Source of the DNA: Nisaea sediminum | GTDB taxonomy: Bacteria > Pseudomonadota > Alphaproteobacteria > Thalassobaculales > Thalassobaculaceae | Direction: 5' to 3' | NCBI RefSeq assembly: GCF_014904705.1 | Contig: NZ_JACZCQ010000001.1 | Coordinates: 310,001-374,000, forward strand | Length of the DNA stretch: 64,000 nt | In this document: positions 31,959 through 57,212 of the stretch, piece by piece | Numbering within the stretch: position 1 is the stretch's first letter | Layout: each line of letters begins with the position of its first letter | Position numbers and translations under genes: made by a program | Notes under the pieces: model-generated | What the model saw: only the letters and a program-made list of their open reading frames with translations | Told to the model about the DNA's origin: nothing | The model's database searches: none

Positions 31959-31972
31959 CGCCCCTTCAACCC

Positions 31973-32076
31973 ATCAAAACGGTCGTCATTCCCGCGGACG
32001 CGGGGACCCAGGGATCCAGGTCCGAGCTCGACGCTCTCTGGGTCCCCACTTGCGTGAGGATGACAACCGTTTTGAT
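31973..32076. repeat. 104-bp imperfect inverted repeat (REP/MITE-like)
   Basis: Outer arms ATCAAAACGGTCGTCATTCC and its near-complement GGATGACAACCGTTTTGAT, with inner GGGACCCAG / CTGGGTCCC pairing, form a long stem between the lysE-type and phnA-like genes. The segment GTCGTCATTCCCGCG recurs at 32509. No coding capacity, so it is a non-autonomous repeat. Confidence 0.7.
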
Positions 32077-32171
32077 TGGAGCAAGCGCATAGGGTGCGAC
32101 CCCGTTGCAGTTGTGCGGGCGGGCGAGGGGCGTATAAGGGGCGCAGGATCCCCTTGCCGGAAAGAGCACCC

Positions 32172-32474
32172 ATGTCCGATCAGGATGACGAATACGTCTA
32201 TGACGAAGCGACCGGCGAATGGCGGCCGGCCTCGGAGGTCGCGGCCGAGCGGGCGGCGGCGAACGCGGTCCGCGATGCGGCCGGCAACGAACTCGCCGAC
32301 GGGGATTCGGTCACGCTGATCAAGGATCTGAAGGTGAAAGGCGCGGGGCAGACCCTGAAGCAGGGCACTGTCATCAAGTCGATCCGCCTGACCGACAATC
32401 CCGAAGAGATCGACTGCAGGCACGAGAGCATCAAGGGCCTCGTGCTCAGGACGGAGTTCGTCCGCAAGCGGTAA
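32172..32474 (+). CDS. PhnA/YjdM-like protein lacking the zinc ribbon
   Basis: 100 aa. The C-terminal 70 residues match the PhnA (YjdM) domain: GNELADGDSVTLIKDLKVKG, GTVIKSIRLTDN, IDCRHESIKGLVL and a final KTEFVRKR-type end. The N-terminal cysteine-rich zinc ribbon of E. coli YjdM is replaced by a short acidic stretch (SDQDDEYVYDEATGEW). The family name (alkylphosphonate utilisation) is historical and no phosphonate genes are here. Role unknown. Confidence 0.82.
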   Translation: MSDQDDEYVYDEATGEWRPASEVAAERAAANAVRDAAGNELADGDSVTLIKDLKVKGAGQTLKQGTVIKSIRLTDNPEEIDCRHESIKGLVLRTEFVRKR

Positions 32475-32568: not shown

Positions 32569-32754
32569 TCACGCCTCCGGCTTGTTGGCGTGCGCGTTCA
32601 GGTAGCTTTCCAGGTCCTTTTCTGCCACGCGCCAGTCGCGGCCCATCTTGATCGCGCGTAGCTCGCCGTCGCGGATCCAGTTGCGGACCGTGCTTTCCTT
32701 CATTTTCAGGAGGTCGGAGACCTCATGGATGGTCAGGAGCGGTTTACTCAGCAT
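32569..32754 (-). CDS. Small helix-turn-helix protein (excisionase/MerR-like, HTH_17)
   Basis: 61 aa, essentially one winged helix domain: LLTIHEVSDLLKMKESTVRNWIRDGELRAIKMGRDWRV then a short helix. This is the excisionase-family HTH_17 fold. No integrase or phage gene is adjacent, so it is probably a small DNA-binding regulator. It is divergent from nhaA with a 113-base AT-rich gap. Confidence 0.78.
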   Translation of the reverse strand: MLSKPLLTIHEVSDLLKMKESTVRNWIRDGELRAIKMGRDWRVAEKDLESYLNAHANKPEA

Positions 32755-32867
32755 AGCAGCGCCTGTTTTCGTCGTCGTTTATATCATTTTATAGCTGTTT
32801 ATTGAAATTCAAATCCGCAAACCTACATAAGCGGCTGTCTGTCGAATTTCTGACGCCAGGATATCAC

Positions 32868-34082
32868 ATGTCGGCTCCCGCTTCCGCTGCTTCGCGTTCC
32901 GTTTTCGCCCTGCTGCGCCACGAGGCGGCGCCCGGCGTTCTGCTGTTTCTCGCCGCGATCCTGGCGCTGATCCTGGATAATTCCTCGCTCGCCTGGCTCT
33001 ATGACGGCCTTCTGGAAACGCCGGTGACCTTCGCTGTCGGCCAGCTCGTCATCGATAAGCCGCTGCTCCTGTGGATCAATGACGGTCTGATGGCGATCTT
33101 CTTCTTTTATGTCGCTCTTGAGATCAAACGGGAGCTGGTGGAAGGTCATCTCTCCGATCCGCGCGAAGCGGCGCTGCCGACGGTGGCGGCGCTCGGCGGC
33201 ATGGCGCTGCCGGCGCTGATCTTCCTCTTCTTCACCTGGGGCATGGCGGTCGAGATGCAGGGCTGGGCGATCCCGGCCGCGACCGACATCGCCTTCGCGC
33301 TCGGCGTTCTGGCCCTTCTCGGCAAGGGCGTGCCGCCAGCGCTCAAGGTCTTCCTGTTGTCTCTCGCGATCATCGATGACCTTGGCGCCATCGTGATCAT
33401 CGCGCTGTTCTACACCGCCGAGCTTTCCGGGGTCGCGCTGCTCTCCGGGCTGATTGGCGCCGTTGTTCTCGTTGCCATGAACCGGCTTGGCGTCACCCGC
33501 GTCGCGCCCTATGTGCTGGTCGGCGCCGTGATGTGGGTCGCGGTGCTGAAGTCGGGCGTCCATGCGACCTTGGCCGGCGTGGTGATTGGTCTGACCATCC
33601 CGCTGAAGACGCGGGAGGACGAGGAGCCGCCGCTGATCCGTCTGGAACACGGCCTGCAGCCCTGGGTCGGCTTCCTGATCATGCCGCTCTTCGCTTTCGC
33701 CAATGCGGGCATTCCGCTGACCGGGCTTTCCCTGGCGGATCTCTTCCAGCCGCTGCCGCTTGGCATCGCCTTCGGTCTTTTCGTCGGCAAGCAGATCGGC
33801 GTCTTCGGCTTCGCCTGGGCGGCGATCAGGTCCGGCTTCACCTCGCTGCCGAAGGACACGAATTTCGCGCAGATCTATGGCGTCTCGCTGCTCGCCGGCA
33901 TCGGTTTCACCATGAGCCTCTTCATCGGCACGCTCGCCTTCAGCGATCCGGAGCATGCGCGCGCCGTGCGCCTCGGGGTGATGAGCGGTTCCATTCTCTC
34001 CGGCCTTGCCGGGTACGCGGTCCTCCGCTGGGCGATCCGAAGCGCCGCGCGACCTGTAACCGCGGCAACGGCGAGAGCCTGA
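32868..34082 (+). CDS. nhaA: Na+/H+ antiporter NhaA
   Basis: 404-aa inner-membrane antiporter that expels Na+ in exchange for H+ and protects against salt and alkaline stress. The ion-binding aspartates are present: Asp140 in ATDIAFALG and Asp170-Asp171 in LAIIDDLGAI, equivalent to Asp133, Asp163 and Asp164 of E. coli NhaA. ATG at 32868 has CCAGGATATC upstream; a frame extension of 22 residues from 32802 is less likely. Followed by a strong terminator, so it is expressed separately from sbtA. Confidence 0.92.
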   Translation: MSAPASAASRSVFALLRHEAAPGVLLFLAAILALILDNSSLAWLYDGLLETPVTFAVGQLVIDKPLLLWINDGLMAIFFFYVALEIKRELVEGHLSDPREAALPTVAALGGMALPALIFLFFTWGMAVEMQGWAIPAATDIAFALGVLALLGKGVPPALKVFLLSLAIIDDLGAIVIIALFYTAELSGVALLSGLIGAVVLVAMNRLGVTRVAPYVLVGAVMWVAVLKSGVHATLAGVVIGLTIPLKTREDEEPPLIRLEHGLQPWVGFLIMPLFAFANAGIPLTGLSLADLFQPLPLGIAFGLFVGKQIGVFGFAWAAIRSGFTSLPKDTNFAQIYGVSLLAGIGFTMSLFIGTLAFSDPEHARAVRLGVMSGSILSGLAGYAVLRWAIRSAARPVTAATARA

Positions 34083-34100
34083 ATGCATTCCCTCCCCCTT

Positions 34101-34134
34101 GCCCCGGTTCCGTGAGCGGCCGGGGCTTTTTTTT
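34101..34134 (+). terminator. Rho-independent terminator after nhaA
   Basis: Stem GCCCCGG (34101-34107) / CCGGGGC (34120-34126), followed by eight T residues, 18 bases after the nhaA stop codon. Confidence 0.88.
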
Positions 34135-34146
34135 GAGTGACGTGTC

Positions 34147-35145
34147 ATGGATATCAACAGCATCCTCTCTCTTGCAGCCAGCACGCTCGGCTCGCCGGTG
34201 GTTCTGTTCTTCATCCTCGGTTTTCTCGCGGCCCTGGCGCGCGTCGATCTTTCCCTGCCGCAACCGGTCGCCAAGACGATCGCGCTCTACCTGATGCTGG
34301 CGATCGGCTTCAAGGGCGGGGTCGGGCTGGCGGACAGCGGCGCCGGGGCGGCGAGCGTGCTGCCCCTGCTGGTCGGCATCCTCTTCAGCGCCATGTTCCC
34401 GCTGCTCGCCTTCGGCGCGCTCAGGGTCGCGAGCGGGCTCGGCCGCACCGACGCCGCCGCGGTCGCCGCACATTACGGCTCGATCAGCATCGTCACCTTC
34501 CTGACCGCGACCCAGGTCCTGGCCGACCGCGGCGAGGCGGCGGAAGGTATCCTCGTCGCCGTCGCCGCGGCGATGGAGGCGCCGGCCATCGTCGCCGGGC
34601 TCTGGCTCGCGGGACGGGCGGTCAAGCAGGCGGGCGAGGGGACGGCCGACGGGCCTTCGCTCTCCGCCCGCGAGGCGGTGCTGAACTCCTCGGTCGTCGT
34701 GCTGCTCGGCGCGCTCGCGATCGGCTGGTTCACCGGCAAGGACGGGCTCGCCGACATCAAGCCTTTCGTGGTCGATCCCTTCAAGGGCGTGCTCTGCCTC
34801 TTCCTGCTCGACATGGGGGCGGTCGCGGGGCGCGGGTTGCTGCAGAACCGCTCGGCGATCGATCGCGGCACGGTGCTGTTCGGCCTCTACATGCCGCTGG
34901 TCGGGGCGGCGCTGATGGCGCTGGCGGTCTGGCCGCTCGATCTTTCCCCGGCAGGCAAGGCGCTGATGATTGTGCTGGCGGCGAGCGCCTCCTATATCGC
35001 GGTGCCGGCGGCGATGCGGCTGGCGCTGCCGGAGGCCAAGCCGGTGATCTATACGACCCTGTCGCTCGGCATTACCTTCCCCTTCAACGTGGTGGTCGGC
35101 ATCCCGCTCTACGTCGCCGCCGCCTTCGCGCTTTTCGCCTCCTGA
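34147..35145 (+). CDS. sbtA: Sodium-dependent bicarbonate transporter SbtA-like
   Basis: 332-aa membrane protein of the SbtA (former DUF897) family, with about ten hydrophobic segments in two inverted halves. Hallmarks are FLAALARVDLSLPQPVAKTI, LMLAIGFKGGVGLA and AAHYGSISIVTFLTATQVL. SbtA imports HCO3- with Na+. The next gene is the PII-like SbtB, the known partner that inhibits SbtA by binding adenine nucleotides. It is preceded by the nhaA terminator with only 12 bases, so its promoter may lie within nhaA or in the terminator region. Confidence 0.87.
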   Translation: MDINSILSLAASTLGSPVVLFFILGFLAALARVDLSLPQPVAKTIALYLMLAIGFKGGVGLADSGAGAASVLPLLVGILFSAMFPLLAFGALRVASGLGRTDAAAVAAHYGSISIVTFLTATQVLADRGEAAEGILVAVAAAMEAPAIVAGLWLAGRAVKQAGEGTADGPSLSAREAVLNSSVVVLLGALAIGWFTGKDGLADIKPFVVDPFKGVLCLFLLDMGAVAGRGLLQNRSAIDRGTVLFGLYMPLVGAALMALAVWPLDLSPAGKALMIVLAASASYIAVPAAMRLALPEAKPVIYTTLSLGITFPFNVVVGIPLYVAAAFALFAS

Positions 35146-35165
35146 TCCGGTGAATGGAGACAGTC

Positions 35166-35480
35166 ATGCAGACCTTTCCGAAACTCCGCCTGGACATCCT
35201 GATCGAGCAACTGGCCGTCCCCCGCCTGGAGGCGCTTCTGAAGAACCTTCCCGGCGTGCATGGTTTCACTCTCCTGCCTGTGCACGGCGGCAGCGGCCTC
35301 AATGGCGGCTGGACCCGCGACGGTCAGATTGCCGGATCCGAAGGCATGATGATGCTCTGGTGCATCCTCGACGCGCAGCACAAGGACGAGGTGCTCGAAA
35401 AGCTGTTCCCGTTCGTCAACGCGCGCTCCGGGCTGATCTCGGTCTCGAATGTCGAGGTGGTGCGCGCGGAGCGCTTCTGA
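35166..35480 (+). CDS. sbtB: PII-like signalling protein SbtB
   Basis: 104-aa PII-fold protein. Beta-alpha-beta start (PKLRLDILIEQLAVPRLEAL), T-loop region with GGSGLNGGWTRDGQ (about residues 41-54) and closing SGLISVSNVEVV. The classic GlnB T-loop uridylylation tyrosine is absent, as in SbtB. ATG at 35166 has GGAGACAG upstream; the ATG at 35154 has no ribosome site. Twenty bases after sbtA, so co-transcribed; it should gate SbtA according to nucleotide state. Confidence 0.85.
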   Translation: MQTFPKLRLDILIEQLAVPRLEALLKNLPGVHGFTLLPVHGGSGLNGGWTRDGQIAGSEGMMMLWCILDAQHKDEVLEKLFPFVNARSGLISVSNVEVVRAERF

Positions 35481-35614: not shown

Positions 35615-36763
35615 ATGTTGCGTATCGATGCTGCCTTCGACAGCGGCAATATCGAGACCGTCTCGATCGACGATCCGAACGACATCCAGCTTCGCCTCGT
35701 CAAGGACCACCTCTCCGACTTTTACCAGTGGTTCCATTTCCGCCTTTCCGGCGCGAACGGGCGCGGCGTCACCATGCGGATCCTGAACGCGAGCGGCTCG
35801 AGCTATCCGAAAGGCTGGGAGAACTACCGCGTCTGCGCCTCCTACGACCGCGAAACCTGGTTCCGGGTCCCGACCTCTTATGACGGCACGGAACTGACGA
35901 TCCGCCATGTGCCGGAAGCGGATTATGTCTGGTACGCCTATTTCCAGCCCTATTCGATGGAGCGGCACCAGGACCTGATTGCCGCGGCGCAGGGCTCCCC
36001 GCGCTGCACCGCCGAGGTGATCGGCGAGACCCACGATCTGCAGACCATCGACCTGCTGACCATCGGCTCACCCTCGGAGCAGAAGAAGAAGCTCTGGGTC
36101 TTCGCGCGCCAGCATCCGGGCGAGCCGATGGCGGAATGGTACATGGAGGGTTTCATCGAGCGCCTGCTCGACCCCGCCGACGGCACCAGCCGGGCGCTGC
36201 TGGAAAAGGCGGTCGTCTATGCGGTGCCGAACATGAACCCGGACGGCAGCAAGCGCGGGCATCTCCGCACCAACGCGCTCGGTGTGAACCTCAATCGCGA
36301 ATGGGCGGAGCCGAGCGTGGAAAAGAGTCCCGAGGTGCTCTGCGTGCTGGAGGCGATGGTGGCGCGCGGCATCGACCTCTCCTTCGACGTGCACGGGGAC
36401 GAGGCGATTCCCTATAATTTCATCGCAGGAAGTTACGGCGTACCGGGAATTTCCGAGGCGCATGTTACGATGCTGGACCGGTTCCAGGCGACCTATGCGG
36501 CGATGAACCCGGATTTCCAGACGGCGCACGGCTATCCGAAGCCGGCGCCCGGCAAGGGCAATCTCACCACCTCGACCGGGCATATCGCCAACAGGCTCGG
36601 CGCGCTTTCGATGACGCTGGAAATGCCGTTCAAGGACGCCGACAACCAGCCGGATCCGGTGCATGGCTGGGACGGGGAGCGGTCGAAGTCCCTCGGCCGC
36701 AGCCTGGTCGACGTCTTGCTCGCAACGGTGGACGACCTGCCGGCGCCGATGGAAAGGAACTGA
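35615..36763 (+). CDS. M14 family cytosolic carboxypeptidase (AGBL/Nna1-like)
   Basis: 382 aa. Residues 1-130 form the beta-rich N-terminal domain of cytosolic carboxypeptidases (FYQWFHFRLSGANGRGVTM). The zinc site is His167 and Glu170 (ARQHPGEPMAEW) with His260 (DVHGDE); Glu336 in TLEMPFKD is the catalytic base. Arg and Asn of NLNREW bind the substrate carboxylate. No signal peptide. Eukaryotic relatives remove glutamates from tubulin; bacterial substrates are mostly unknown. Four bases separate it from the arsC-like gene. Confidence 0.87.
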   Translation: MLRIDAAFDSGNIETVSIDDPNDIQLRLVKDHLSDFYQWFHFRLSGANGRGVTMRILNASGSSYPKGWENYRVCASYDRETWFRVPTSYDGTELTIRHVPEADYVWYAYFQPYSMERHQDLIAAAQGSPRCTAEVIGETHDLQTIDLLTIGSPSEQKKKLWVFARQHPGEPMAEWYMEGFIERLLDPADGTSRALLEKAVVYAVPNMNPDGSKRGHLRTNALGVNLNREWAEPSVEKSPEVLCVLEAMVARGIDLSFDVHGDEAIPYNFIAGSYGVPGISEAHVTMLDRFQATYAAMNPDFQTAHGYPKPAPGKGNLTTSTGHIANRLGALSMTLEMPFKDADNQPDPVHGWDGERSKSLGRSLVDVLLATVDDLPAPMERN

Positions 36764-37127: not shown

Positions 37128-38246
37128 ATGTCGGACGCCAGTGAGGTCATCGTTATCGGCGGCGGGCTGGTTGGCGCGGCCGTCGCCTACGGGCTCGCCC
37201 GCGAGGGGGCGTCCGTCACGATGCTCGACGAGGGCGATGTCGCGCTGCGCGCCTCACGCGGCAATTTCGGCCTCGTTTGGGTGCAGGGCAAGGGCGACGG
37301 GATGCATGAATATGCAAGCTGGACCCGGCGCTCGAAGGATCTCTACCGGAGCTTCGCAGACGTCATCCGCGGCGGCGACGGAACCGATATCGAGTTGAAG
37401 CAGGACGGTGGGCTCGAGCTCTGCCTCGGCGAAGAGGATTTCCGCGCCAACGAGGACGAGATCCGCCGCATGCACAACCAGCCCGGCGTCGGCGAGAATG
37501 ATCGGGTGATGCTGGACCGCGCCGATGTGCTGAAGATGCTGCCGCTGATCGGTCCGGAAGTGACGGGCGCCAGCTACTCTCCGCATGACGGCCACGTGAA
37601 CCCGCTCTATCTGCTGCGCGGCCTGCATGGCGGCGCACAGGCGCTGGGCGCGCGCTATGTCAGCGGCGCGCAGGTGCGGAAGATCGAGAAGGATGGGGAG
37701 GGTTTCAGCGTTTCCACCAAGGTGGGGGCGTTTCGCGGCGGCAAGGTGGTCATCGCGGCCGGGCTCGCCAACAAGTGGCTGGCGGAAATGGTCGGTCTCT
37801 CGATCCCCGTCGAACCGAACCGGGGCCATATCCTGATCACGGAGAGGATGCAGCCTGTGATCCCGATGCTTCTCGTCAATGCGCGGCAGACCGCGGACGG
37901 AACGATCAATTTCGGCAACAGCCACGAGGATGCGGGCTACAGCACGCGCATCAACCCGGCGAAGCTCGCCGAGATCGCGCGCTCGGTCATTCGCAGTTTC
38001 CCGGTCCTGAAAGATGCCCGCATTGTCCGCACCTGGAGTGCGCTCCGGGTGATGTCGCCGGACGGCTTCCCGATCTACCGGGAGAGCGAGAGTATGCCGG
38101 GCGCCTTCAGCATTTCCTGCCACAGCGGCGTCACGCTGGCTGCAGCGCATGCGCTCGAACTCGCGCCGGTCATTCTCCGCGGCGGTTTCAACGAGCGCTT
38201 CGCCGCCTTTTCTCCGGAGAGGTTCGATGCTGCGCCGGCTGCCTGA
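37128..38246 (+). CDS. FAD-dependent oxidoreductase, DAO family (subunit of a heterotrimeric dehydrogenase)
   Basis: 372-aa D-amino-acid-oxidase-type flavoprotein with the FAD-binding IVIGGGLVGAAVAYGLAREG near the N-terminus and WSALRVMSPDGFPIY near the end. It resembles HcnC, opine oxidase subunit B and sarcosine oxidase beta. With the two downstream genes it forms a catalytic subunit oxidising an amino or imino acid and passing electrons to partner flavin/Fe-S subunits. Six bases after the ArsC-like gene and overlapping the next gene by 20 bases. Confidence 0.85.
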   Translation: MSDASEVIVIGGGLVGAAVAYGLAREGASVTMLDEGDVALRASRGNFGLVWVQGKGDGMHEYASWTRRSKDLYRSFADVIRGGDGTDIELKQDGGLELCLGEEDFRANEDEIRRMHNQPGVGENDRVMLDRADVLKMLPLIGPEVTGASYSPHDGHVNPLYLLRGLHGGAQALGARYVSGAQVRKIEKDGEGFSVSTKVGAFRGGKVVIAAGLANKWLAEMVGLSIPVEPNRGHILITERMQPVIPMLLVNARQTADGTINFGNSHEDAGYSTRINPAKLAEIARSVIRSFPVLKDARIVRTWSALRVMSPDGFPIYRESESMPGAFSISCHSGVTLAAAHALELAPVILRGGFNERFAAFSPERFDAAPAA

Positions 38247-38544
38247 ACAGAAGGGACGAAGGGTGCGCTTCCTGTTCGAGGGCGAGCAGGTGCATGCGCT
38301 TGAGGGCGACAGCGTCGCGGCAGCGCTTCTGGCGGCGGGAGCCGGTGCCACCCGCACGACGCCGAAAAGCGGATCGCCTCGCGCGCCCTATTGCATGATG
38401 GGTGTCTGTTTCGAATGCCTGGTGGAGATCGATGGTGTGCCGAACCGGCAGGCATGCCTGATCGAGGTGCGGGATGGAATGCGGGTACGTCGCCAGCGCG
38501 GCGCGCCTGGGCTGCCTGGGGAGGCGGAAGATGACCCGGTTTGA
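38227..38544 (+). CDS. (2Fe-2S)-binding small subunit
   Basis: 105-aa Fer2_4 domain protein, as in HcnA and the N-terminus of sarcosine oxidase alpha. Cluster ligands are Cys56, Cys61, Cys64 and Cys77 (PYCMMGVCFEC...RQAC). ATG at 38227 overlaps the upstream FAD gene by 20 bases and the end overlaps the next gene by 14, which implies coupled translation and fixed stoichiometry. Confidence 0.85.
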   Translation: MLRRLPEQKGRRVRFLFEGEQVHALEGDSVAAALLAAGAGATRTTPKSGSPRAPYCMMGVCFECLVEIDGVPNRQACLIEVRDGMRVRRQRGAPGLPGEAEDDPV

Positions 38545-39934
38545 CCTCGCCATCATCGGTGCCGGCCCGGCGGGAATGTCGGCGGCGGTCACGGCGCGCG
38601 ACGCCGGGCTCTCGGTGATCGTGGTGGATGAGCAGCCTGCGCCGGGCGGGCAGATCTGGCGCGCGGTCGGCCGCAACGCCGGTGCGCGTTCTGGAAACCT
38701 CGCTTTTCTCGGCGAGGATTATGCGAAAGGCGCGGAACTCGCGGCGCAGTTCGAGGCGTCCGGCGCGCAGTTCTGGCCGAGCGCGTCGGTCTGGCATGCC
38801 GACAGTCCGGATGAAGGCGACAAGACGGTGACGGTCGCCTGGGACGGAGCGACGCGGCAGTTCCGGGCCGGAGCGCTGTTGATCGCGACAGGCGCGATGG
38901 AGCGGCCGGTCCCAGTTCCGGGATGGACGCTGCCGGGCGTCATGACGGTCGGCGCGGCGCAGACGCTGCTGAAGAGTTCGGGGCTTCATCCGGAACCGCC
39001 ATTGCTGCTCGCCGGAAGCGGTCCGTTGCTGCTGCTGTTCGCGGCCCAATGTATTGCCGCCGGTATCGAGATAGCGGCGTTGCTCGAAACCACGCCGCCG
39101 GGCGCCTATATGCGCGGCCTGCCGCACCTGCCCGTGGCCTTGCTCGGATGGCGGACTCTGCTTAAGGGGCACCGGCTGAAAAGACAGTTGGCAGCCTCGG
39201 GGATACCGGTCTACCGGGCGGTCACCGACCTTGTGGCCGACGGCACGGAACAGCTTGAGCGCGTCCGGTTCCGGAGCGCGGGGATGCCGGTGGAACTCGA
39301 AGCTGCGCACCTGCTGCTGCACGAGGGCGTGGTGCCGAACCCGCAGCTGACCCGGCTGCTCCGCTGCGACCATCACTGGGACGCGGCGCAGCGCTGCTTC
39401 CGGCCGGATCTGAGCGACCGCGGCGAGACCAGCGTCGACAATGTCTTCGTCGCCGGCGATGGAGGCGGGATCGGCGGCGCTATGGCGGCCGTCCATTCAG
39501 GACGTATCGCGGCGTTCGAGATCGCCGAGCGTTTCGGCTCGGTCAACCGGCCCTCCGGCGACGTCGAGATCGTCAAAGCGCGAGACGCGCTGCGCGCGGA
39601 ACTTGCCGTCCGGCCGCTGCTCGACGCGATGTTCCCGCCGCCGGACTGGATTGCCCGGCTGGACGGAGACGTGACGGTCTGCCGCTGCGAGGAGGTGAGC
39701 GCCGCTGCCGTACGCAAAGCCGCCGCGCTCGGCGCCCCGGGTCCGAACCAGGCGAAGGCCTTCCTGCGCGCCGGCATGGGCCCGTGCCAGGGGCGCATGT
39801 GCGGTCTCACCATCACTGAAATTCTTGCCGATGCGCACGGGGAACACCCTGAGCGGATCGGCTACTACCGGATCCGCCCCCCCATCAAGCCGGTCACGCT
39901 CGGTGAACTGGCGGCGCTGGACGGATCGGACTGA
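38531..39934 (+). CDS. FAD/NAD(P)-binding subunit with C-terminal BFD-type [2Fe-2S] domain
   Basis: 467 aa. Pyridine-nucleotide-disulfide oxidoreductase fold starting FDLAIIGAGPAGMSAA with DEQPAPGGQIW, a second nucleotide site (LLAGSGPLLLLFAAQ) and a late VFVAGDGGGIGG. The C-terminus has a BFD-like Fe-S site: Cys384-x-Cys386 (TVCRCEEV) and Cys419-x4-Cys424 (GPCQGRMCG). This architecture is that of HcnB/opine oxidase A. Together the three subunits probably form a D-amino acid, hydroxyproline, opine or glycine dehydrogenase; the substrate is not identifiable from sequence. Confidence 0.87.
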   Translation: MTRFDLAIIGAGPAGMSAAVTARDAGLSVIVVDEQPAPGGQIWRAVGRNAGARSGNLAFLGEDYAKGAELAAQFEASGAQFWPSASVWHADSPDEGDKTVTVAWDGATRQFRAGALLIATGAMERPVPVPGWTLPGVMTVGAAQTLLKSSGLHPEPPLLLAGSGPLLLLFAAQCIAAGIEIAALLETTPPGAYMRGLPHLPVALLGWRTLLKGHRLKRQLAASGIPVYRAVTDLVADGTEQLERVRFRSAGMPVELEAAHLLLHEGVVPNPQLTRLLRCDHHWDAAQRCFRPDLSDRGETSVDNVFVAGDGGGIGGAMAAVHSGRIAAFEIAERFGSVNRPSGDVEIVKARDALRAELAVRPLLDAMFPPPDWIARLDGDVTVCRCEEVSAAAVRKAAALGAPGPNQAKAFLRAGMGPCQGRMCGLTITEILADAHGEHPERIGYYRIRPPIKPVTLGELAALDGSD

Positions 39935-54407: not shown

Positions 54408-57212
54408 ATGCCGGACGAAAGCCACCTGGACTCCGCCGGCGATCAAGTCGCCGAAGACTCGAAGGATGCTCCCCTGCGCGAGGATATCCGGTTGCTCGGG
54501 CGTCTGCTCGGCGACACCGTGCGGGAACAGGAAGGTCAGGGGATCTTCGATGTCATCGAGAAGATCCGGCAGATATCCATCCGCTTTCACCGCGATGACG
54601 AGCTGCAGGCCAAGCTTGAGTTGGAAGAACTGCTCGCACGTCTCAGTCCAGACCAGTCGGTGCAGGTGATCCGTGCCTTCAGCTATTTCTCGCACCTCGC
54701 CAACATTGCCGAGGACCAGCACCATATTCGTCGCACCCGGGCGCATGACATTCAGGGCTCGGCCGCGAAACGCGGAAGCATCGAAGCGGCACTTGGCGCG
54801 GCTGAGGAGGCAGGATTTTCAGCGACCGACCTGGAACGTTTTTTCGCGGAAGCGCTTGTTAGCCCGGTCCTGACGGCACATCCGACCGAGGTCCGGCGCA
54901 AGAGCACGATGCGTCGCGAGATGGCGGTTGCGGACCTGATCTCCAAGCGGGAACGGGGACTGTGGACCCCGGAAGAGGCGGCGGATATCGACGACAAGCT
55001 GCTCCGCGCCATCCTCACTCTCTGGCAGACCAATCTGCTGCGCCAGACCCGCCTGACGGTTGAAGACGAGGTCGAGAACGGGCTGACTTATTATGACTAC
55101 ACCTTTTTCCGGGAGCTTCCGCGGCTTTATTGCCGACTTGAGGACAGGATCGCCGCGATGGCCGGAGAGGGCGCGAAGATCGATCTTGCCTCTTTTCTCC
55201 GGATCGGCAGTTGGATTGGTGGCGACCGGGATGGCAATCCTTTCGTGACCGCGGAGGTCATGGAGCGCACCCTTCAGATGCAGAGCGAGAGGGTGCTGCG
55301 CTTCTATCTCTCGGAGCTGGAGAAGCTGGAGGACGAGCTCTCGCTCTCGCTCCGCATCGTCTCGGCCTCTGCGAAGCTGACCGAGCTTGCGGATGCGGCT
55401 GCGGATACCTCGCAGCACACTGCGGTCGAGCCTTACAGGCGCGCACTCTCGGGCATGCGTGCGCGGCTCGATGCGACTTTGGGAGCGGTATTGAAGCCTC
55501 TGCCGCGGGAGCCGATGCCGGTGCATGGCAGGACCTCGGACGAAAGGAACGGTTACGCCCTTCCGGAGGAACTTCTCGCGGATCTGGAAGTCATCCACGA
55601 CTCTCTGGTCGAGAACGGCTCCCGCCTGCTGACCGAAGGCCGCCTCCGCCGGCTGCGCCGCGCGGTCGATTGTTTCGGCTTCCATCTCGCGAGCCTCGAC
55701 ATGCGGCAGAACTCCGAGGTGCATGCGAAGACGATGGCCGATCTGCTGTGTGCCGTTGGCGCCGCGGAGGATTATGCCACGCTCGACGAGGAGGCCCGGA
55801 TCGAGCTGCTTTCAGCGGAACTCGCCAATTCGCGTCCTTTGGTGCGGCCGTTCGAGGCTTATGCCGAGGAGACCGAGAAGGAACTCGCGATCTTCCGCAC
55901 CGCCGCCGCGGCGCACCGGCGCTATGGGCAGAGGGCCATCGCGACCTCGATCATCTCGAACACCCAGAGCGTCTCCGACCTGCTCGAGCTCGCGATCCTT
56001 CTTAAGGAGGTCGGGCTGGTCACGTCCGACGGCGGGAGCCGGGTGAATGTCGTGCCTCTGTTCGAGACCATCGAGGACCTGCGCAACTGCGTCGGAATCA
56101 TGGACCGGCTGCTTGCGATCCCGGCCTACCGGGCGCTGGTCGACAGTCTCGGCGGCACACAAGAGGTGATGCTCGGCTATTCCGACAGCAACAAGGACGG
56201 TGGGTATCTCACATCCGGCTGGGAGCTCTACAAGGCGGAGATCGCGCTGATCGAGCTGTTCCGGAAACACGGCGTCCGGCTACGTCTGTTCCATGGCCGG
56301 GGCGGGACAGTCGGTCGCGGCGGCGGCCCGAGCTTCGAGGCGATCCTCGCCCAGCCGGCCGGCGCTGTGGACGGACAGATCCGGCTGACCGAGCAGGGCG
56401 AGATCATCTCGAGCAAATACACCAACCCGGATCTCGGCCGTCGCAACCTCGAAATCCTCGCCGCCGCCTGCCTCGAGGCCTCGCTGTTGCGGCCCGAGCG
56501 CGACGACATTCCGCCAGCCTATCTCGAGACCATGGAAGCGCTCTCGGCGGAAGCGTTCAAAGCCTACCGCGCGCTGGTCTACGAGACGCCGAGGTTCGAC
56601 GAGTATTTCTGGGGCTCGACCGTCATCAACGAGATCGCGACGCTGAATATCGGCTCGCGTCCGGCGTCGCGGAAGAAGCTCGGGAAGATCTCCGACCTGC
56701 GTGCCATTCCGTGGGTTTTCAGCTGGTCCCAGTGTCGACTCATGCTGCCGGGTTGGTACGGGTTCGGCAGTGCCGTGAAAGCGTGGCTTGCAGATAATCC
56801 GACGACCGGTCTTGAGCAGTTGCGCGCGATGTATCGTGACTGGCCGTTCTTCGAGGGACAGCTCTCGAACATGGCGATGGTGCTGGCCAAGACGAACATG
56901 GCGATCGCCTCGCGCTACGCCGAGCTGGTCGAGGACAAGGAGCTGCGCGAGACGATCTTCCACAGGATCAGGGATGAGCGGCAAGCCTCGGTGGAGGCAC
57001 TGTTCGAAATCACCGGGGCCAGTTCTCTCCTGGAGAACAACCCGCTGCTTTCGCGCTCGATCTCGAACCGTTTTCCCTATCTCGATCCGCTCAACCACCT
57101 GCAGGTCAACCTGCTGCGTCATTACCGCCGCGAGCCGGACAATCCGAAAGTCCTCCGGGGCGTCCAGCTCACGATCAACGGCATTTCGGCCGGTTTGCGC
57201 AACAGCGGTTAG
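54408..57212 (+). CDS. ppc: Phosphoenolpyruvate carboxylase
   Basis: 934-aa PEPC, which fixes HCO3- onto PEP to make oxaloacetate. Catalytic His158 is in [44 protein letters not shown] and [16 protein letters not shown] complete the signature, with a C-terminal [10 protein letters not shown] near the allosteric site and end. About 40 residues longer than E. coli Ppc at the N-terminus. Likely its own transcription unit; 190 bases after sufA without a visible terminator. It could use the bicarbonate imported by SbtA. Confidence 0.94.

Follow-up and report, generated by a model that had tools for sequence, protein, structure and literature searches.

A 64,000-nucleotide stretch of the Nisaea sediminum genome (RefSeq assembly GCF_014904705.1, contig NZ_JACZCQ010000001.1, positions 310,001 to 374,000 of the forward strand), which we call the window and number from its first letter, encodes the Na+/H+ antiporter NhaA, an Sbt_1-superfamily transporter, and a PII-like protein in succession. 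The link between NhaA and Sbt is real but confined to some alphaproteobacterial lineages, and it is this link, not the occurrence of Sbt in a heterotroph, that makes the locus unusual. The system is a variation on a familiar type, noteworthy because NhaA and Sbt are linked repeatedly and because a clade common among heterotrophs has a pocket of its own. We consider it rather probable that the module works as a PII-gated Na+ circuit for bicarbonate, in which NhaA would recycle the Na+ that enters via Sbt together with HCO3-.

Recurrence of the NhaA-Sbt pair

The nhaA gene (32868..34082, plus strand) matches PF06965 with an E-value of 2.8e-146 (487.6 bits), and its product scores above the cut-offs of the equivalog TIGR00773 (471.9 bits against 254) and of NF007112. 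It is the only NhaA match in the genome, it matches the E. coli NhaA structures 1zcd and 4au5 over nearly the full length, and it carries the TDIAFAL, DDLGA, and GK motifs, including the DD ion-binding motif; the DD pair and the other motif residues presumably have their usual functional roles. The sbt gene (34147..35145, plus strand; PF05982, E 1.3e-100) encodes a Na+-coupled transporter of the superfamily and of a clade marked by the motifs HYGSxS and SASYIAVP. Its score of 337 bits lies far above the curated cut-off of 27, profile positions 1-306 of 308 are covered, and a profile search found no second Sbt_1 gene in the genome. The PII-like gene follows at 35154..35480 on the same strand (PF00543, E 1.5e-7, 32.1 bits against a gathering score of 25). 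Its start is probably at 35166, giving 104 residues, because the ATG there follows GGAGA and aligns with the starts of relatives. These are the three genes that the initial annotation had named, at exactly the positions it gave.

Among 387 alphaproteobacterial genomes drawn evenly from the class, 80 (about a fifth) have an Sbt match. We examined 78 carriers, namely 74 of those 80 and four genomes from the window's order (G016, G025, G028, and G030). Weak matches, taken to be of cyanobacterial type, were left out (G024, G058, G063, G151, G219, and G242, and likewise G035 from the window's order), the one in G063 being a 94-residue fragment of unsure type, and the strong copy alone was used where a class-sample genome has two. 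Two carriers with a broken or fragmented Sbt (G030 and G091) are counted in the 78 and are absent from the tree and the PII count. In G030, which belongs to the window's family, the match is in two pieces (L007/L008), as if the gene were broken or the assembly faulty.

NhaA lies within 2 kb of Sbt in 12 of the 78 carriers, from seven families, when 0.084 would be expected from NhaA placed at random in genomes assumed to be 3.5 Mb long and treated as independent. Leaving out the window's genus, 10 linked genomes in six families stand against 0.079 expected, and an NhaA gene is present in 45 of the 78. The arrangement varies: NhaA is directly upstream of Sbt on the same strand in five genomes (G000, which is the window's, G016, G124, G352, and G330), downstream on the same strand in G106, convergent in G043, G157, and G369, and divergent in G139, G224, and G102. 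The two matches are two bases apart in G330 and about 40-55 bases apart in G124 and G352. NhaA is also the commonest Pfam family among the immediate neighbors of Sbt, both upstream (6/71, counting the window and its sister genome, ahead of LysR regulators with 5) and downstream (4/73). The neighbor genes were picked by a crude coding score and six short picks were discarded by hand; 71 of 75 upstream genes and 73 of 75 downstream ones entered the scans. On a quick tree of 86 Sbt sequences, in which 37 of 83 inner branches are unsupported, the distribution of NhaA linkage (with locus L076 added) requires eight changes, six of them forced by starred branches, and the linkage has therefore been gained or lost repeatedly. 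The adjacency that the initial annotation merely noticed thus recurs across families. The literature matches listed include no NhaA-Sbt cluster, although this does not show that none has been published.

A fourth gene accompanies the three in some lineages. Divergent from nhaA, at 32569..32754 on the minus strand, lies a gene for a small HTH_17 DNA-binding protein of 61 residues (PF12728, E 1.2e-15). A gene of this kind occupies the same divergent position in the sister genome G016 (locus L128, 93%) and in two genomes of another family, G124 and G352 (L124 and L125; 71% and 69%). This conserved placement defines a module of HTH, NhaA, Sbt, and PII genes in two families; no match to the HTH gene was found in the remaining loci of the 91 searched, the eight other NhaA-linked ones included. 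The HTH_17 protein is a candidate regulator of the module. The HTH-nhaA intergenic region (32755..32867) is probably a promoter and operator region. When it is aligned with its counterparts in three relatives, a TTGA is invariant and a few other columns are conserved here and there, nothing more, and a consensus promoter scan found nothing.

Between nhaA and sbt, at 34101..34134 on the plus strand, a GC-rich hairpin of nine pairs is followed by eight T (fold z -2.36), its folding being beaten by only 2 of 200 shuffles. Because the promoter scan was empty and terminator-like sites in the scan did not exceed shuffled sequence (3 against 3.6), the hairpin has to be judged by its own fold score. 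The sister genome has a stronger hairpin at the same place (z -3.65), without the T run. The element may be a terminator, an attenuator, or a leaky site, and nhaA and sbt may or may not be co-transcribed across it.

A transporter clade common in heterotrophs and its PII-like partner

The AlphaFold model of the window Sbt (pLDDT 87.2) best matches the SbtA structures 8zor (Z 35.4 over 324 residues) and 7cye (Z 33.3). All of its top five PDB matches are SbtA, with TM scores of at most 0.81, and the 5+5 fold of SbtA is recognizable. On the quick tree, window-type Sbt proteins are separate from two cyanobacterial-type sequences of the same order. Alignment of 151 window-type sequences gives HYGSxS for the first crossover, with Y110, G111, and S112 in all, H109 in 149, and S114 in 150. 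The second crossover is mostly SASYIAVP, with Y283 in 150 sequences (one gap) and V286 in 139, and E144 is fixed in all 151.

The anion pocket sets this clade apart. In a docking model of Slr1512, bicarbonate is contacted by S114, Y140, S324, and S327, and alanine mutants of these residues retain about 10-40% activity (PMC8352866). Numbered through the sequence alignment, window-type Sbt retains S114 and S324. The Y140 site is occupied by A, L, V, M, T, or I and the S327 site by A or V (one gap), while both residues are kept in the two cyanobacterial-type rows of the alignment. Judged by its modeled fold and its aligned residues, the window transporter is a member of the Sbt_1 superfamily and not SbtA1, because the fold is that of SbtA while Y140 and S327 are gone.

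Compared with cyanobacterial SbtA1 (slr1512; 7cye, 7egk, 7egl, and 8zor), the window protein shares the Pfam family, the fold, the PII-like gene directly downstream, and identical residues at the Na+ site positions G111, A320, and S322. It differs in being only about 24% identical, in having fixed H109, Y110, and Y283 alongside the two lost contacts, and in a shorter stretch between its two halves. Another system to compare is the cyanobacterial SbtA2-SbtB2 pair, known to us by description alone, in which a second SbtA subfamily is reported to have its own PII-like partner (PMC13249358, PMC9477826), and SbtA2 is credited in a review with HCO3- uptake in E. coli (PMC13249358). The window Sbt is probably a bicarbonate importer, a substrate that the gene neighborhoods described below favor.

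The PII-like partner likewise departs from the cyanobacterial pattern. In a phmmer search up to an E-value of 5, its sole credible PDB relative was the CPII protein of Thiomonas (E 2.5e-4), and no SbtB was recovered. The structural model (pLDDT 87.7) gave Foldseek E-values of 2.0e-8 to CPII entry 5d4n and 2.4e-8 to 5d4o (with ADP, AMP, and bicarbonate), 9.6e-6 to Thermus TTHA0516, and 2.6e-5 to SbtB. The corresponding Z scores were 13.9 to 5d4p (with ADP and bicarbonate), 12.9 to TTHA0516, and 12.0 to SbtB, where differences under 1 count as ties. Although this PII-like fold is encoded directly after an Sbt transporter, as in SbtB, its nearest relatives are CPII and TTHA0516, and on sequence and model alike the partner is nearer to CPII of Thiomonas than to SbtB. 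Neither the window protein nor any of the 104 complete homologs has the redox R-loop CGPxGC, which is described for about half of cyanobacterial SbtBs (PMC10991534). CPII of Thiomonas intermedia (5d4l, 5d4n-5d4p, 5drk, and 5ds7) is the best match in both sequence and structure, and its entries were solved with ADP, AMP, and bicarbonate. Going by the title of its paper, CPII is reportedly a carboxysome-associated PII, unlike the window protein, whose genome has no match to a carboxysome shell protein or RuBisCO. We infer that the window PII binds nucleotides.

A plain cyanobacterial SbtA1/SbtB pair was accordingly rejected, on the pocket residues and on the ranking of the PII protein with CPII. 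The initial annotation had called the pair SbtA/SbtB; an Sbt-type transporter with a PII-like partner stands, whereas the identity with SbtA and SbtB gives way to a separate clade with a CPII-like partner.

The pairing of the two genes is itself common. Among the named loci, which represent the best 80 out of 523 confirmed matches and are rich in Rhodobacterales (43/80), 78 have a PII gene adjoining Sbt on its strand. Such a gene also adjoins Sbt in 50 of 76 class-wide window-type loci and in 26 of 30 loci of a second sample (one being the window and four being shared with the class sample). This second sample comprised 58 carriers out of 67 genomes, 32 of them outside Alphaproteobacteria, after removal of the window's genome (G000), six genomes already among the 78 (G159, G370, G215, G129, G184, and G076), and two with cyanobacterial-type matches (G058 and G586). 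A PII match is missing from 26 class-wide loci, and 18 of these are in genomes of at most 2 Mb (for example L174-L177, L179-L181, L184, L185, and L189-L192). The PII gate seems to have been lost in small genomes or to be too divergent there.

The initial annotation regarded Sbt in a probable heterotroph as noteworthy. Sbt in heterotrophs is in fact common, as 80 of 387 genomes carry it and 72 of the 78 carriers have no RuBisCO match. Two of the six RuBisCO matches are full length, one is interrupted by stops, and three are partial; the partial ones look like RuBisCO-like proteins. The stop-interrupted matches lie at 12691-13212 on contig C8 of G025, a carrier from the window's family. Within the window's order, 7 of 36 genomes have an Sbt_1 match. 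Relatives also occur in 16 plasmid records, including Tritonibacter, Cereibacter, Arthrobacter, and Azospirillum, 15 of which annotate the protein as a 'sodium-dependent bicarbonate transport family permease'. SAR11 carriers have been noted previously (PMC10030771), and one survey describes inorganic-carbon toolkit genes, Sbt included, as widespread in both autotrophs and heterotrophs (PMC10880623). Two loci of the window's family, L005 and L006, carry a cyanobacterial-type SbtA (SSSDISGPPTLR), L005 with an SbtB-like gene on the opposite strand as well, and both Sbt types are therefore present in one bacterial family.

For the window's genome, the two marks of a carboxysomal CO2-concentrating mechanism are not found: genome-wide there is no match to PF00016 (RuBisCO) and none to PF00936 (carboxysome shell) in an assembly rated 98.8% complete, while both profiles matched the positive control, Synechococcus elongatus. 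This answers the check on the genome that the initial annotation had proposed. Its statement that no Calvin-cycle genes are visible is extended by the genome-wide result for RuBisCO; phosphoribulokinase and other CO2-fixation pathways were not searched. Two beta-carbonic anhydrases are encoded in the genome.

A candidate sodium circuit and its alternatives

NhaA and Sbt probably work together, because the pairing recurs in some distant relatives. In the circuit that we propose, NhaA would expel Na+ in exchange for H+, and Sbt would draw HCO3- inward on the resulting inward Na+ gradient. Given the known Na+/H+ stoichiometry of NhaA, the net result would be import of HCO3- and H+, about equivalent to CO2 and water, at the expense of the proton gradient, with neither Na+ load nor alkalinization. 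A PII-like trimer would dock on Sbt and throttle it according to the adenylate state, possibly also to bicarbonate, on the model of SbtB, which gates SbtA by insertion of its T-loop (PMC8352866). The HTH_17 protein may control nhaA. Such a circuit would suit waters that are alkaline or poor in CO2, in which inorganic carbon is mostly HCO3-, and the bicarbonate would serve PEP carboxylase, acetyl-CoA carboxylase, carbamoyl phosphate synthesis, and pH balance, without a Calvin cycle. What the analysis establishes is the identity of the genes, the folds of the models, the recurring linkage, and the lack of RuBisCO matches; the substrate, the direction of transport, the docking and ligands of the PII protein, and control by HTH_17 belong to the proposal.

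There are precedents for both halves of this proposal. Cyanobacterial SbtA is described as relying on Na+/H+ antiporters, with nhaS1 in the NdhR regulon together with sbtA/B (PMC13249358). By analogy, the physical clustering with NhaA would be the cyanobacterial Na+ logic fixed in gene order. MpsAB, which we take to be a protein family other than Sbt, would resemble the proposed module in supplying heterotrophs with bicarbonate for anaplerosis. This role in anaplerotic reactions is reported for the MpsAB of staphylococci (PMC8567241).

Neighboring genes point to inorganic carbon. A beta-carbonic anhydrase lies in the Sbt flank of 47 of the 80 named loci, 46 of them on the Sbt strand, three of the 47 assignments having been confirmed by Pfam. 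The gene is upstream of Sbt in Roseobacteraceae, Paracoccaceae, and others, and downstream in Stappiaceae, Thalassospiraceae, and others. Within 5 kb of Sbt, it was found in 6 of the 78 class-wide carriers and in 16 of the 58 of the second sample. AccA, the carboxyltransferase subunit of acetyl-CoA carboxylase, is upstream of Sbt in 3 of 71 cases from two genera (L187, L189, and L190). Inorganic carbon, and bicarbonate in particular, is therefore favored. The three AccA loci are in small genomes and, by profile, have no PII gene beside Sbt.

Several observations weigh against the circuit. NhaA linkage occurs in none of the 58 second-sample genomes, although 19 of them have NhaA, and in only one of the 80 named loci (L076); most Sbt carriers thus do without it. 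Three of the five genomes of the window's genus have no Sbt match, the other two being the carriers. Neither carbonic anhydrase gene of the window's genome is on the contig of sbt, the strong hairpin with its T run separates nhaA from sbt, and the bicarbonate contacts Y140 and S327 are retained in 0 of 151 window-type sequences.

The last point also speaks for a different substrate. It is conceivable, though we think it unlikely, that window-type Sbt moves formate, a short carboxylate, or some other small anion in place of bicarbonate, and maybe exports it, with NhaA still supplying the Na+ gradient. Half of the SbtA1 bicarbonate contacts are replaced, while H109, Y110, E144, and Y283 are fixed, or nearly so, at the frequencies given above. 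SO_3758 of Shewanella oneidensis, an Sbt-family protein from a bacterium not studied for autotrophy, carries the same second motif: its residues S268-A269-S270-Y271-I272-A273, as named in PMC12093963, correspond to S280-A285 of the window protein. That report, unlike ours, concerns formate tolerance, which was raised by the substitution A269T in the middle alanine; its authors favor efflux, and the direction of transport is stated there to be unknown (PMC12093963). However, formate binding was modeled in that work and growth rather than transport was measured (PMC12093963), and neighboring beta-carbonic anhydrase and AccA genes make sense for bicarbonate but not for formate.

Less probable still, to our minds, is an island for pH and salt homeostasis, in which both transporters are needed in alkaline, salty conditions, bicarbonate acts as a buffer and not a carbon source, and no direct ion coupling exists. 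The varied gene orders are as compatible with common conditions as with common ions, the hairpin would permit separate expression, and the window nhaA is the cell's only NhaA match. Against this stand the PII-like gene next to Sbt in nearly all named loci, which suggests control by metabolic state, and the recurrence as a partner of carbonic anhydrase, which has no role in Na+ balance. That NhaA and Sbt are chance neighbors with a meaningless link is very improbable, for all that a hairpin separates them and the linkage is missing from the second sample and from 79 of the 80 named loci, in view of the 12 linked carriers against 0.08 expected, the 10 genomes in six families against 0.08 without the window's genus, and the HTH-NhaA-Sbt-PII order common to two families.

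We therefore return to the PII-gated Na+ circuit for bicarbonate as the preferred reading. A broader version of it is offered tentatively, as a possibility that we hold to be somewhat short of even. Heterotrophs may have a type of bicarbonate uptake distinct from the cyanobacterial one, with its own Sbt clade and anion pocket, a CPII-like adenylate/bicarbonate sensor, and NhaA (or carbonic anhydrase) hard-wired in several lineages, so that Na+ and pH would be balanced together.

Surrounding genes and meaning for heterotrophs

Downstream of the PII gene, at 35615..36763 on the plus strand, lies a gene for an M14 cytosolic-type carboxypeptidase (PF18027 and PF00246). It was rejected as a member of the module: only the sister genome G016 (L128) has a counterpart at this position, 90% identical, and the other loci among the 91 searched gave no match. 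The gene for PEP carboxylase, a bicarbonate consumer, is at 54408..57212 on the plus strand (PF00311, 1088.7 bits), 18.9 kb from the PII stop. The distance of about 19 kb in the initial annotation is correct, but its use as a functional hint was rejected, as there is no sign of linkage. Elsewhere in the window, minus-strand frames at 31966-32173 give the translations LTQVGTQ and WVPASAGMT, which we take to resemble a dispersed intergenic repeat, and at 37128-39934 an FAD oxidoreductase (DAO) is encoded beside an FAD/BFD [2Fe-2S] protein in what looks like an opine- or amino-acid-oxidizing dehydrogenase set. Overall, the interpretation in the initial annotation is partly supported.

Bicarbonate uptake has been studied mostly in autotrophs, and the Sbt clade described here has links to NhaA or to carbonic anhydrase that recur. 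The coupling with NhaA would explain in simple terms how cells meet the cost of drawing in HCO3- with Na+. If members of the clade do import bicarbonate, a regulated route of entry could underlie some of the dark CO2 uptake by heterotrophs.

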